A stretch of 36,704 nucleotides of DNA, taken from Flavobacteriales bacterium (GTDB lineage: Bacteria; Bacteroidota; Bacteroidia; Flavobacteriales_D; Crocinitomicaceae). The position numbers and the translations under genes are program-made. The stretch spans positions 1-36,704 of the forward strand of contig JADFAL010000115.1 in the NCBI GenBank assembly GCA_015665275.1, given 5' to 3'. Positions 1 to 16,578 of the stretch are shown here, piece by piece (within the stretch, counting starts at the first letter, position 1; the number at the start of each line of letters is the position of its first letter). A model generated the notes under the pieces. That model worked only from the letters and a program-made list of their open reading frames with translations. It did not search any database and was not told where the DNA came from.

Positions 1-396
1 GAAGCCATTTTAGCGTACAATCAAAACGTGCAACGCATAACTTCAAACGATGAATTTATTCAAACCGTGGAATACGACACACCTGCGAATCGAACGACGG
101 AACGCATGTACTTCCGGGTTTGGTTGGAAAAGAAATCGAAACAGCCACTGGAAAATGTTTCGTTGGTAATTCATGCGACTGATAGTGATTCGGACTTCAA
201 TCACTACCATGCTATTCCTCTCTACAACGATCGTTTCGCCGGAATCAACAACTGGACGTCGTTATCGTTTAGCGGGCAAATTCCAGACCATTTCAACGAT
301 TTTGAGAAAGTTAAAATCTACATCTGGAATCAAGGAAAAGAAACCTTTGAATTGCGAAACATTCACATTTTTATAGACACGTACAAATCATTATAA
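1..396 (+). CDS. C-terminal part of an unidentified protein (cut by window edge)
   Basis: The reading frame is open to the first base of the window, so this is the last 131 codons of a longer gene; the GTG at 28 is probably an internal Val. The visible part is soluble, rich in aromatic and beta-branched residues, and looks like an all-beta domain (pattern FRVWLEKKS...VSLVIHATDSD...KVKIYIWNQGKETFELRNIHIFID), as found at the C-terminus of some Bacteroidota membrane or carbohydrate-related proteins. I do not recognise the family. It ends two bases before the next ATG, so it is very probably co-transcribed with the ExbD-like lipoprotein. Confidence 0.8.
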   Translation, partial: EAILAYNQNVQRITSNDEFIQTVEYDTPANRTTERMYFRVWLEKKSKQPLENVSLVIHATDSDSDFNHYHAIPLYNDRFAGINNWTSLSFSGQIPDHFNDFEKVKIYIWNQGKETFELRNIHIFIDTYKSL

Positions 397-398
397 CT

Positions 399-1277
399 AT
401 GAAGTTTCACCATTTGTTGGCTGCGACATTGTTTACTTTACTTAGTTCTTGTGGGGGAGAATCTGAAAAGGAGGAAACCGCCAACAACGAGAAGAATGAT
501 TTTATCGCTCCGGTAACGGAAGACTACCAGCATATCATTGCGGAATCTACGAATGATTATCCGCTTATTTTACGATCGGAGATGGACATTGAAATACTTG
601 ATCGTAACATAATGGAAATAGTGATTGGTCTTGACGGATCATTTACCATCGAAGGAGATAGCGCAGATTGGGATGATTTGGACGAAGAAGTTCGTATGTT
701 TTTTGAGATCAATCGAAGACTGAGCGCCGATCAATATTCAAAGTTGAAAAATGATAAATACTACAAAGGAGTTTCTTATCCATTCTTTACTCGTTTTACA
801 CGGGAATCATATCAAAGTTATATCAATCAGCTCACTAAAATGGCGGAAACGGATGCGAAAGCTGGTCTTTATCTTCAACGTCATGTTAGGCGTTTCAAAG
901 CGTTCGATGCGGTAGAAGATCAAGAATTACCATACATTAGCCCATTGGCCGTTATAAGATACGTCCATCCTGATGATTATCCACAAGAAAAACTTCTAGA
1001 ATTCGAAACAAAGTTGGCTCAAATCATTTATTCGCTTAGAGGAGATTTAGCCATTGATAAATTCAAAACAAATTACAGGAACATTAGGGCTAGAGTTGGT
1101 GCGGATGGAGATGCTAGAAGGCAATTGTTGTACTTACAAGAAATGTATCCGGCTTATTTATTGAGACTAAAAGAATCCGAAACGGAAGTTCTAGAACCTG
1201 CATTGGAGCCAATGCCTGTTCCAACTCCGGCACCCTCAGAAGATATCGAAGAAGAACCTTTGGTGCCTGTTCGTTAA
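399..1277 (+). CDS. Lipoprotein with an ExbD-like periplasmic domain
   Basis: This 292-residue protein has an SPII signal peptide with lipobox LSSC (Cys18), followed by an acidic tether. The body has no membrane helix. Residues about 69-250 match the periplasmic part of the large ExbD encoded at 14426-15217: RNIMEI against RNIFEI, FFEINRRLSADQ against FYRINRSLSGEQ, YYKGVSYPFFTR against SYKGYEFPFYSR, SPLAVIRY against HPQAHIRV, and LRGDLAIDKF against LRDEAAMKYF, in the same order and similar spacing. The ExbD transmembrane helix with its essential Asp is missing, so it cannot itself be a stator subunit. The tail is Pro/Glu-rich (about 268-292). It is joined to the gene upstream by a two-base gap and shares a TTAA stop overlap with convergent hemJ. 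Homology to ExbD is read from the sequence; the role (partner, decoy or regulator of the ExbB/D complex) is unknown. Confidence 0.85.
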   Translation: MKFHHLLAATLFTLLSSCGGESEKEETANNEKNDFIAPVTEDYQHIIAESTNDYPLILRSEMDIEILDRNIMEIVIGLDGSFTIEGDSADWDDLDEEVRMFFEINRRLSADQYSKLKNDKYYKGVSYPFFTRFTRESYQSYINQLTKMAETDAKAGLYLQRHVRRFKAFDAVEDQELPYISPLAVIRYVHPDDYPQEKLLEFETKLAQIIYSLRGDLAIDKFKTNYRNIRARVGADGDARRQLLYLQEMYPAYLLRLKESETEVLEPALEPMPVPTPAPSEDIEEEPLVPVR

Positions 1278-1831
1278 GATTTGGATCGAACGCGTTTATA
1301 CATCTTAATCAAAATCATTAGACCTATTGCAACGGCAAAAAAGCCAACTGTTCCTTTGATCCAATTCATGGAATCTTTCAGCATCACAATGAAAACGATA
1401 GCTACGAGTGCCAATGTCGCTACTTCGTTCCAGAGGCGCAGCATGTTCGATTTCCATGCGTACTTGCCTTTTTTCAGATCAAACATGATTTTCTGGCAAA
1501 CAAAATGGTAAACCAACAAAAGTCCCACAAAAGCCAATTTGATGTGCATCCAACGACCAGCTGGGGATTCAAAGAAATAGTCCCATCGTTCAAAGAGCAT
1601 CCAGAATCCAAAAACGAAGGTGAGAATCATGGCCGGTGTTGTGATAATCCACCACAAACGTTTCTCCATAATTTCAAACTGATCCGAAAGAATTTTTCTT
1701 GCCGTTTCCTCCTTTTGCTGGGCTTCCGTATGGTAAATGAACAAACGAACGATATAGAAAAGCCCTGCAAACCAGCTCACCATGAAGATAATGTGCAACG
1801 CTTTAATAGTCTGATAGGATTCGTATTCCAT
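1274..1831 (-). CDS. hemJ: HemJ-type protoporphyrinogen IX oxidase
   Basis: The 185-residue membrane protein has about five hydrophobic helices and starts with the family signature: ALHIIFMVSWFAGLFYIVRL near the N-terminus, then IYHTEA, a Trp-rich second segment (WWIITTPAMILTFVFGFW) and a third containing WMHIKL. This is the HemJ (UPF0093) family, which oxidises protoporphyrinogen IX to protoporphyrin IX in the inner membrane during haem synthesis; the His of ALHIIF and the Arg/Lys residues are the conserved ones. Length is close to normal for the family. The 3' end overlaps the convergent lipoprotein gene by four bases (both stop in TTAA). A promoter box lies only four bases before the ATG. 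No other haem gene is next to it. Confidence 0.88.
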   Translation of the reverse strand: MEYESYQTIKALHIIFMVSWFAGLFYIVRLFIYHTEAQQKEETARKILSDQFEIMEKRLWWIITTPAMILTFVFGFWMLFERWDYFFESPAGRWMHIKLAFVGLLLVYHFVCQKIMFDLKKGKYAWKSNMLRLWNEVATLALVAIVFIVMLKDSMNWIKGTVGFFAVAIGLMILIKMYKRVRSKS

Positions 1832-13886: not shown

Positions 13887-14399
13887 TTAAAATGCTGACT
13901 TATCCTCTACAGCGTATGCTATTTTCAAGGCGTCAATATCTTGTAGTGCGTCTCGGATATCAAAGATTAGAATCGTTGGCACACCTTCGTCGGCTTTGAT
14001 ACAAGTGATCACATTAGAGATCGGCTCGTTCATATTCGACGGTTTCGTGTTCATTTTGTCTAGCTTCCAATCTGCAACACTGTTCGTAGAATAAAGATCT
14101 CCTGGTTGTGGTTGTGCTACGTTATCAAGGAACAAAGCATGCCCCAACTTGAAATCAGCTGCTCGTTTCTTGTTACGCGGCTCCCCAATATAAAGGAAAT
14201 CAATCTCAGAGCGCTGTTTGTACGGTGTTAAATCCGTTGCACTTACTCCTTGCGGTCTTTGTACATCTACCGTTGGATCTGATTCTTTTGTAGTTGTTGC
14301 TACCATGAAGAAGAACAACAACATAAATACGATATCCGGAAGGGACGAGGTATTTACCCCTGGTGCTCCTTTCTTATTTTCTTTTCTAAACTTTGACAT
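13887..14399 (-). CDS. exbD: ExbD/TolR-type protein (second, short)
   Basis: The 170-residue protein has a short cytoplasmic N-terminus and one membrane helix, SSLPDIVFMLLFFFMVATTT (18-37), with the ion-path Asp22 placed as in ExbD/TolR. The periplasmic domain (about 38-170) is compact. With ExbB it would turn the proton gradient into force on TonB-dependent receptors or a Tol-like partner. It is unlike the larger ExbD upstream apart from the helix, so the two are probably different stator subunits. It is the last gene of the operon, 26 bases after the other exbD and just before the terminator. Confidence 0.92.
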   Translation of the reverse strand: MSKFRKENKKGAPGVNTSSLPDIVFMLLFFFMVATTTKESDPTVDVQRPQGVSATDLTPYKQRSEIDFLYIGEPRNKKRAADFKLGHALFLDNVAQPQPGDLYSTNSVADWKLDKMNTKPSNMNEPISNVITCIKADEGVPTILIFDIRDALQDIDALKIAYAVEDKSAF

Positions 14400-14425
14400 C
14401 TCTAAATGTTTTTGTTTTAGGAAGA

Positions 14426-15217
14426 TTAACCTTTCGGTTTCACCTCAATAATGCTCTCTGGGAACAATACGTCGATGGCTCTGATCTTCTTACCGTCACC
14501 TTTTTTGTCTTCCTTATCCTGATCCAGACGCTTACTCATTTTAGCATACGATTCTCCGAAATATTTCATGGCTGCTTCATCGCGCAATTCAATCAATGCT
14601 TCTTGAATTTCTGAGTGAATTTTCGCGAAGAGTTTGTACTCCGTTTCCTGCTGTACTACCACACGGATGTGCGCTTGCGGGTGAATCTCTACCAACTCTT
14701 TTTCCTTAAGCATTTTGATTGCCTGTTCTTTTTTCTGCCACTTTGTAAGTAGATCTAAATAGAACACAACAAAATCTTCCTCTTCATCTGCTTCGGCACG
14801 CTCCAAGTCCTTTTCATTCTTATCGATCTCTTTGACAATTTGGTCCAAGGTCACGCGACTGTAGAATGGGAATTCATATCCCTTGTAACTCTCATTCTGA
14901 ATTAGACTTTTCGTTTGCTCTCCACTCAAGCTTCGGTTAATTCGGTAGAACTCCAAAACGCGATCGGAAATGTCGTCAGGATTTTCAATAATCTCTCCAC
15001 GAATCATCAAACGGTTCGCGGCATTCGCTCGAATTTCGAAAATGTTACGGTTTTCAATGTCTGGTGGAGGTTGCGGAATATCAATCTTCTTCGGGATATA
15101 GCGAATGTATGCCGTATCCTTTTCCATCGTTGTTGTTACAAGGAAGAAAATTAGAAGAAGGAAGGCGATGTCCGCCATCGATCCTGCGTTAATTTCCGGT
15201 ATATCTCTCTTCGCCAT
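14426..15217 (-). CDS. exbD: ExbD/TolR-type protein (large periplasmic domain)
   Basis: This 263-residue protein is about twice the usual ExbD length. The helix GSMADIAFLLLIFFLVTTTM (12-31) carries the ion-path Asp16. The periplasmic part has a Pro-rich linker (IPQPPPDI, 47-54), a first beta unit (RNIFEI, 57-62), an inserted acidic helical stretch (about 128-178, rich in Glu/Lys), the strand HPQAHIRVVV, a helix ending LRDEAAMKYF, and the C-terminal VLFPESIIEVKP. This same periplasmic domain is seen without the helix in the lipoprotein at 399-1277. It starts six bases after the 4-TM gene stops. Confidence 0.93.
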   Translation of the reverse strand: MAKRDIPEINAGSMADIAFLLLIFFLVTTTMEKDTAYIRYIPKKIDIPQPPPDIENRNIFEIRANAANRLMIRGEIIENPDDISDRVLEFYRINRSLSGEQTKSLIQNESYKGYEFPFYSRVTLDQIVKEIDKNEKDLERAEADEEEDFVVFYLDLLTKWQKKEQAIKMLKEKELVEIHPQAHIRVVVQQETEYKLFAKIHSEIQEALIELRDEAAMKYFGESYAKMSKRLDQDKEDKKGDGKKIRAIDVLFPESIIEVKPKG

Positions 15218-15223
15218 AAATGT

Positions 15224-15703
15224 TTATTTTCTGTATTTCCCAAGAAGGAAAGGTCCAAGAATCGCCAAAAGAATTCCCAAAACGATTCCGATGATCACTA
15301 CCCACAAACCTGCTGTCGTTGCATCCAACGTAGCATCGCTTACATGGTAGTTATCTGTTAATACAAGGCTTTCGTTTGTATCAGATGTTCCCATCAATCG
15401 AAGAATCCAGTACAATACAAATGCAGCAACAATTCCAATGATTGATAATGCTGTTTTCTTTGTGTTGGTGATCAATTGGAACAAGAAGAACAAAAGAACT
15501 CCAACTATGGCAGCAACGATAATGATCACTGTATAGTTAATCGCCAATCCCATTTGCGGTGAATCCGCATATTGGTCCTTCACTACTTCCGTAGCTTCTG
15601 ACCCCGGGCTGGTTGAAAGCACCCAAATACATGCGAACGCTCCGATGGCGCCGATCACGTATTTGATGGCGTTCATTGCCAAGTCAAATTTTTTAGTATC
15701 CAT
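15224..15703 (-). CDS. Four-helix membrane protein of the exb operon
   Basis: The 159-residue protein has four predicted membrane segments (about 15-32, 56-77, 85-102 and 131-154). The loop between helices 1 and 2 is acidic (EATEVVKDQYADSPQ), and the C-terminus is basic (LLGKYRK). I do not recognise a named family. Its place between exbB and two exbD genes, with gaps of 38 and 6 bases, points to a role as an accessory subunit of the same motor. Such proteins are known as unnamed neighbours of ExbB/ExbD in Bacteroidota; the function is not established. Confidence 0.85.
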   Translation of the reverse strand: MDTKKFDLAMNAIKYVIGAIGAFACIWVLSTSPGSEATEVVKDQYADSPQMGLAINYTVIIIVAAIVGVLLFFLFQLITNTKKTALSIIGIVAAFVLYWILRLMGTSDTNESLVLTDNYHVSDATLDATTAGLWVVIIGIVLGILLAILGPFLLGKYRK

Positions 15704-15741
15704 TTTTAATCTTTTTTCAAGTTTCTTAACTACTGATAGGC

Positions 15742-16578
15742 TTAGGCGTTTGCCTTGTGCTTCAACATCATATCGATCAATGAGATTGATGCATCTTCCA
15801 TATCATTTACCAAACCGTCTACTTTAGAAACGATGTAGTTGTAGAATACTTGCAATACGATCGCTGCGATCAAACCGAATACTGTTGTCAATAGGGATAC
15901 CTGAATACCGCCTGCAACTGTAATTGGTGATACTTGACCATCTTTTACAATTTGATCGAAGGCGAAGATCATACCGATTACCGTTCCCAAGAACCCGAGC
16001 ATTGGCGCAAGAGCGATGAACAATGATAACCATGACAAGCCTTTCTCTAGAAGTCCCATCTGAACTCCACCATAAGCAACAACGGACTTCTCGACGACGT
16101 CTATACCTTCATCGGCTCGATCGAGTCCTTGGTAGAATATAGATGCAATTGGTCCACGTGTGTTACGGCAAACATCTTTCGCAGCGTCAACACCTCCATT
16201 TTTCAAAGCTGTTTCAACCTCATCCAAGAAACGTTTCGTGTTGATTGTTGAAAGGTTCAAATAAACGATACGCTCGATTGAAAGTGCCAATCCAAGAATC
16301 AAACAGATCAATACTGGTGACATCCAAACGGGATCTCCTTGAATGAATTTTTGCTTGATTGTAGCAATGATTCCCAATTCTGGCTCTTCTTTCGTTTCAT
16401 CATCCTTAGCAGTTTCTACTTGGGAAGCTGCTTCCGAAGCCGGATCTTCAGCCTGAGTTGAATCAACCACTTCTGTGCTATCCTGCCCTTCTAATTGATC
16501 TTCTTGAGCATATGTTACTCCGGTAAATCCAAATGTGATTGCCGCAGCAATGGCTAGTGAACTAATTACTTTTTTCAT
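15742..16578 (-). CDS. exbB: MotA/TolQ/ExbB proton channel family protein
   Basis: The 278-residue protein begins with a cleavable-looking signal peptide (1-24, ending VTYAQ) and an acidic low-complexity stretch (25-67) before the ExbB core. Helix 1 is WMSPVLICLILGLALSIERI (85-104). The family block ALAPMLGFLGTVIGMIFAF lies at 189-207 and TTVFGLIAAIVLQVFYN at 231-247. The core is the stator channel that passes protons with ExbD. Standard ExbB lacks the secreted acidic N-terminus, but such extensions occur in Bacteroidota. It is the first gene of the operon, with a promoter 45 bases upstream. Confidence 0.94.
   Translation of the reverse strand: MKKVISSLAIAAAITFGFTGVTYAQEDQLEGQDSTEVVDSTQAEDPASEAASQVETAKDDETKEEPELGIIATIKQKFIQGDPVWMSPVLICLILGLALSIERIVYLNLSTINTKRFLDEVETALKNGGVDAAKDVCRNTRGPIASIFYQGLDRADEGIDVVEKSVVAYGGVQMGLLEKGLSWLSLFIALAPMLGFLGTVIGMIFAFDQIVKDGQVSPITVAGGIQVSLLTTVFGLIAAIVLQVFYNYIVSKVDGLVNDMEDASISLIDMMLKHKANA

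Follow-up and report, generated by a model that had tools for sequence, protein, structure and literature searches.

ExbD is known as a moving part of the Ton motor. The periplasmic domain of ExbD forms a dimer that binds a strand of TonB, is held by an interface centered on Tyr112, and touches peptidoglycan (PMC10771500). Two outer-membrane lipoproteins, Pal of the Tol system and PorE of the T9SS, are tied, or proposed to be tied, to machines of the ExbB/ExbD class. Both carry OmpA-like peptidoglycan-binding domains, and an ExbD domain is not described for either in the available portion of the source (PMC12204202). The same paper discusses other motor-linked lipoproteins and helix-bearing variants (PMC12204202), and the "ExbD domains" of another report are ordinary ton proteins (PMC6851124). 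A search of the open-access literature found no paper on ExbD-domain lipoproteins, in agreement with the preliminary description of the present locus, which knew of no described protein of this form.

The window analyzed here is a stretch of 36,704 nucleotides from the genome, designated G000, of a Fluviicola-like bacterium (class Bacteroidia, family Crocinitomicaceae). At 399-1277 on the forward strand, it encodes a protein of 292 amino acids, the type A ExbD-domain lipoprotein. A hydrophobic signal peptide (residues 1-17) ends in a lipobox, LSSC, read by eye (399-452), with Cys18 encoded at 450-452. A spacer (residues 19-62) leads to a region homologous to the periplasmic half of ExbD (residues ~63-259; 585-1175), which includes the large insert common to the ExbDs of this group, and the protein ends in a proline/acidic tail (residues ~263-292; 1185-1274) recalling a TonB linker motif by a loose pattern only, defined post hoc. 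The N-terminal membrane helix of ExbD and its conserved Asp are missing, and the signal peptide and Cys18 occupy their place. Reading the sequence thus bears out the coordinates, strand, and cysteine given in the preliminary description, as well as the exchange of helix and Asp for a lipobox signal. The lipid anchor is putative, being read from the lipobox; Cys18 is invariant in all 11 aligned lipoproteins of type A and of the related type B described below. No Pfam or NCBIfam family matches the protein up to an E-value of 1, and the cut-off of PF02472 is not reached. Scans for promoters and terminators near the gene gave no more signals than shuffled sequences did.

The homology of residues ~63-259 to the periplasmic half of the large ExbD encoded in the same window is confirmed and lies far beyond chance. 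In a single-pair BLASTP comparison, lipoprotein residues 63-233 align with ExbD residues 53-231 over 188 columns at 26% identity (E 5e-13). When the lipoprotein was searched against the whole genome up to an E-value of 10, the large ExbD was the sole other match (E 3.8e-12). Profile-profile comparison of three lipoproteins with four ExbDs gave a probability of 98.5 (E 2.9e-15), and hhalign with 31 ExbDs against 11 such lipoproteins gave 99.95 (E 1.1e-37), with a match that reaches the end of ExbD. The likeness over about 180 residues first noticed by eye is significant both pairwise and between profiles, and the five shared blocks on which it was based (RNI[MF]EI, INR.LS..Q, YKG...PF..R, A.IR.V, and LR....A...F) are all present in both proteins. 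AlphaFold2 models were poor, with a mean pLDDT of 35.4 for ExbD alone and 38.6 for the lipoprotein with its XM-24bin1 orthologue. Sequence searches of the PDB with three profiles (A4, A2, and A7) returned no credible relative, and a scan of a viral collection with the ExbD alignment found none. Compared with ExbD/TolR proteins (PF02472) in the large form of this group, the lipoprotein shares the periplasmic half, insert and C-terminal end included, but lacks the membrane helix, the ion-path Asp, and the interface Tyr; it adds a lipobox and a tail, and it falls below Pfam detection.

The large ExbD (263 aa; 14426-15217, reverse strand; PF02472, E 5e-12), the closest relative of the lipoprotein found in the genome, retains the membrane helix and its Asp16. 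It belongs to an operon on the reverse strand (13887-16578) that also encodes a second, smaller ExbD (13887-14399; PF02472, E 8e-8), a small hydrophobic membrane protein between exbB and exbD (15224-15703; no Pfam match above cut-off), and an ExbB of the MotA/TolQ/ExbB family (15742-16578; PF01618, E 5e-26). A signal-like start and then an acidic N-terminal extension precede the channel part of this ExbB. The operon pairs a large, insert-bearing ExbD with a small ExbD whose periplasmic part is different; the two might form an asymmetric pair within the motor. It is the large ExbD that the type A and B lipoproteins resemble.

The type A gene is not encoded with exbB in the window or in either of the two genomes that hold an orthologue, G187 and G153. 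The large exbD lies about 13 kb away on the opposite strand in the window, about 23 kb away in G187, and about 24 kb away in G153; in G187, it stands in the order exbB, small membrane protein, exbD, exbD, as in the window. Immediately upstream of the lipoprotein gene and in the same direction is a membrane protein gene (1-396, forward strand, C-terminal end only) that is cut by the contig start and encodes 581 amino acids in G187. The lipoprotein gene begins 2 bases past it in the window and 5 bases past it in G187 and G153. The first 455 residues of this membrane protein match contig C46, so C46 and the window contig probably adjoin. Downstream, a convergent UPF0093 (hemJ-like) gene (1274-1831, reverse strand) overlaps the end of the lipoprotein gene by 4 bases.

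In G187 and G153, the type A orthologues lie between the same two neighbor genes as in the window. The three proteins share 48-51% amino-acid identity. They evolve more rapidly than ExbD, which has 73-77% identity, and more rapidly than the two neighbors tested. Synonymous sites are saturated (pS 0.78-0.79) at a pN of 0.30-0.35, and the gene is under amino-acid constraint. The upstream-gene homologue was read in 13 relatives. In four of them (G295, G231, G304, and G312), the site is empty and the homologue directly abuts the 3' end of the hemJ-like gene; in the other nine, the homologue lies elsewhere. The four empty sites imply that the type A gene was either gained in the trio or lost in other lineages.

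A reading of the lipoprotein as a single oddity is not supported: other exported ExbD domains occur in the same taxonomic family and, more distantly, in four further families of the class. A profile built from four lipoproteins and four ExbDs matched 95 of 200 genomes of the family, many of which carry ExbD but no such lipoprotein. Eighteen further places were fetched and read; five encode ExbDs with a membrane helix and 13 lack it. Among these 13, 11 have a lipobox-type Cys (one, L055, is cut by a contig end), the signal peptide of L045 shows no lipobox, and L053 resembles a remnant. Counting the type A trio, exported ExbD domains devoid of the motor helix are present in at least 13 of the 200 family genomes, a lower bound because only part of the matches in the 95 genomes was read. 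The reading leaves aside seven low-scoring matches taken as small ExbDs (frames of 119-151 aa covering only the first 50-96 profile positions), a G285 match at the start of its contig, and a short match in G218. Any match that began at the first positions of the profile was classed as ExbD; of these, only the ones entering the identity comparison were read.

These exported domains fall into several architectures. Type B (eight complete proteins) has a spacer of roughly 50-80 residues before the ExbD domain, and type C carries an extra N-terminal domain of about 150 residues ahead of it. The N-terminal domains of type C are related to different degrees, clearly between G416 and G457 (E 1e-14) and between G153 and G416 (E 1e-7), with only 0.001 between G153 and G173 and 0.05 at best for G316. 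The lipoprotein profile was also run against the order (399 genomes) and the class (395 genomes), with the best six candidates per genome scored; among the matches listed, those at full length all fell in this family. A type C profile (G153, G416, and G173) gave near full-length matches in four of the 395 class genomes: G416, itself a member of the profile; G000, where the match has a stop inside; G457, with a lipobox; and G599, with a Cys in a looser lipobox. A partial match in G553 has a signal peptide without Cys. G416, G457, G599, and G553 represent four other families of the class. Against the Pfam ExbD cut-off of 25.4 bits, the G416 protein (29.6) lies above and the G153 type C protein (15.9) below.

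The window's own genome holds further members or traces of this set. A protein of 150 amino acids on contig C26 (37464-37913; L013) has a hydrophobic start, a Cys at position 16 in a loose lipobox, and an ExbD domain that scores above the Pfam cut-off (30.0 bits); the Pfam alignment starts within this hydrophobic peptide, as though a motor helix had turned into a signal peptide. Like type A, the C26 protein and type C are exported ExbD domains without a motor helix, but the C26 protein lacks the insert, and type C adds its N-terminal domain and does not form one clade with types A and B. On contig C2 (95184-95429; L053), an apparent type B remnant, reduced to its C-terminal part, stands where G153 has a whole gene, and its frame opens with the apparent end of the upstream gene. 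A type C gene on contig C10 (52081-52983; L214) is split by one in-frame stop and has a maf-like neighbor, as in G153. Elsewhere, G276 carries type B genes in tandem (L046, 1-1458), with the second copy truncated at the contig end, and in G253 a type B gene has a fragment beside it (L051, 4095-5127). All eight type B and three type C genes lie on contigs other than that of the matched ExbD, and the loci read place none of them close to ton genes.

A tree of 64 domains, whose bootstrap had yet to converge and which carried flagged long branches, places type A in one clade (100/100) on a very long branch of 4.27 changes per column and type B in another (88/75). The G173 type C domain nests among the ExbDs from its genus group (98/95). 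For some type B and C domains, identity to ExbDs from the same genome or genus is 38-48%; the nearest ExbD to the G153 type B protein is its own, and the nearest to the G173 type C protein are those of its genus. Constraining the 14 exported domains to one clade was rejected (p 1.7e-5); the same constraint on types A and B was not (p 0.386), and type A may derive from type B or directly from ExbD. This rejection means that helix-less export arose at least twice or that the domain was later replaced from a resident ExbD. On a plain reading of the tree, ExbD periplasmic domains would have become exported and helix-less at least twice; the alternative would be one origin followed by domain replacement from the resident ExbD. 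Related type C N-domains joined to different, locally similar ExbD domains would fit either origin.

A comparison of 50 ExbDs with the 11 type A and B lipoproteins and three of type C separates the residues that were kept from those that were lost. Asp16 is present in 50/50 ExbDs and falls in a gap in 11/11 lipoproteins of types A and B. Asn94, Thr192, and Tyr194 are present in every ExbD. Types A and B keep Asn94, Arg212, and Tyr224 in 11/11 proteins, have Thr192 in 1/11, and have Tyr194 in none. By alignment, Tyr194 corresponds to the interface residue Tyr112; an alignment matched the DY motif of a solved ExbD chain to a different ExbD of the genome, and the remaining step is our own. The interface Tyr is kept in two of the three type C proteins aligned, and no strand-swap segment was seen in types A and B. 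Judging by these residues, types A and B have probably lost ExbD-like pairing, which some type C proteins might retain. The ExbDs are most alike in the core (positions 177-212, 58%) and less so in the insert (positions 77-176, 35%), whereas the type A trio shows the reverse (core 42%, insert 54%), although this sets three orthologues against 50 varied ExbDs and is a rough comparison. Type B shows no reversal within the group (core 25%, insert 23%). Only 21-29% of the insert is common to type A and the ExbD of the respective genome.

The type A tail extends about 30 residues past the ExbD region. A loose pattern describing it occurs in the C-terminal 45 residues of 3/3 type A, 0/8 type B, and 1/3 type C proteins. 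It is found at the C-terminus of none of 439 other open reading frames in the fetched loci and none of 324 others in 400 kb of G187. Counted over whole proteins, the pattern occurs in four of the 439, three of which are TonB, and in one of the 324. A strict version is present in two of the 14 lipoproteins, including one of the three type A tails and none of the eight of type B. Among 40 TonB_C frames from six genomes, three carry the loose pattern (one each in G153, G194, and G201), and none of these is from G000 or G187. A shorter core (PPP, two acidic residues, and I or V) is present in one TonB each of G000, G187, G153, G194, and G201 (5/40). This proline/acidic core, chosen post hoc, resembles a stretch in the type A tails. 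Unlike TonB, the type A lipoprotein has neither a TonB_C domain nor the TonB membrane helix; Pfam gives no TonB_C match in it, and it is not among the ten TonB_C places of the genome. One of those ten is on a frame of 516 amino acids (L067) that appears kinase-like by eye. Both sides had been seen when the patterns were drawn up, and stretches of this kind have a simple composition, so the likeness is a lead rather than proof. The type A tail is suggestive of a TonB linker motif, weakly so for the window's own genome.

We propose, with a probability of roughly 0.35, that the type A protein is a static, membrane-tethered binding protein that meets a component of the Ton system outside the ExbB-ExbD motor. 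The signal peptide and Cys18 would stand in for the motor helix and leave the periplasmic half of ExbD tethered. Such a protein can neither carry protons nor turn in ExbB, and instead of entering the motor, it would hold or position Ton components at its membrane. Given some retained landmark residues in the insert and the C-terminal helices, the lost Tyr, and the TonB-like tail, the likeliest partner would be a component that ordinarily contacts either the ExbD insert or the linker of TonB in the periplasm.

About as likely as this binding role is a wholly different duty, in which the ExbD fold has been fully repurposed as a periplasmic or surface receptor, or as a peptidoglycan-binding lipoprotein, with no link to Ton. 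The fast divergence seen in the long type A branch and the loss of the interface Tyr both favor such a change, as does the genomic setting, in which the genes are not beside ton genes in the loci read and a co-directional gene for the 581-residue membrane protein ends 2-5 bases upstream. The peptidoglycan contact described for the ExbD periplasmic domain (PMC10771500) points the same way. However, the three type A proteins share a tail that recalls TonB, and the identity of some type B and C domains to local ExbDs, 38-48%, argues against complete repurposing.

A role as cap or competitor, in which the lipoprotein pairs with ExbD in the ExbB complex, was raised in the preliminary description and now seems rather improbable. 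The lipoprotein is a true homologue of the large ExbD, the G153 type B and G173 type C domains are closest to ExbDs of their own genome and genus, respectively, and two of three aligned type C proteins keep the interface Tyr. However, a protein missing the membrane helix cannot sit in the ExbB pore, and ExbD-like pairing is weakened for the window protein by the loss of the Tyr, which 0/11 type A and B proteins have retained, and by the lack of any visible strand-swap segment. Judged on these residues, capping or competition is possible for type C and disfavored for the window protein. It is very improbable that the lipoprotein is a relic in decay, left by duplication of part of ExbD and exported by chance. 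G000 does hold the apparent type B remnant on C2 and the split type C gene on C10, but type A is intact in 3/3 genomes, with a lipobox and amino-acid constraint.

On a wider reading, these bacteria may repeatedly build a second Ton layer that has no motor, in which lipid-anchored ExbD domains, some with TonB-like tails, are seated at a membrane and hold, gate, or recycle TonB or its clients without the proton motive force. We regard this wider idea as unlikely. The occurrence of the periplasmic half of ExbD alone behind lipoprotein signals, in several architectures, suggests that this half can be useful without the motor. Motor-free ExbD halves bear on what is contacted by the periplasmic domain of ExbD and by this group's insert, and exbD assignments made by domain alone will include proteins unable to be motor parts.
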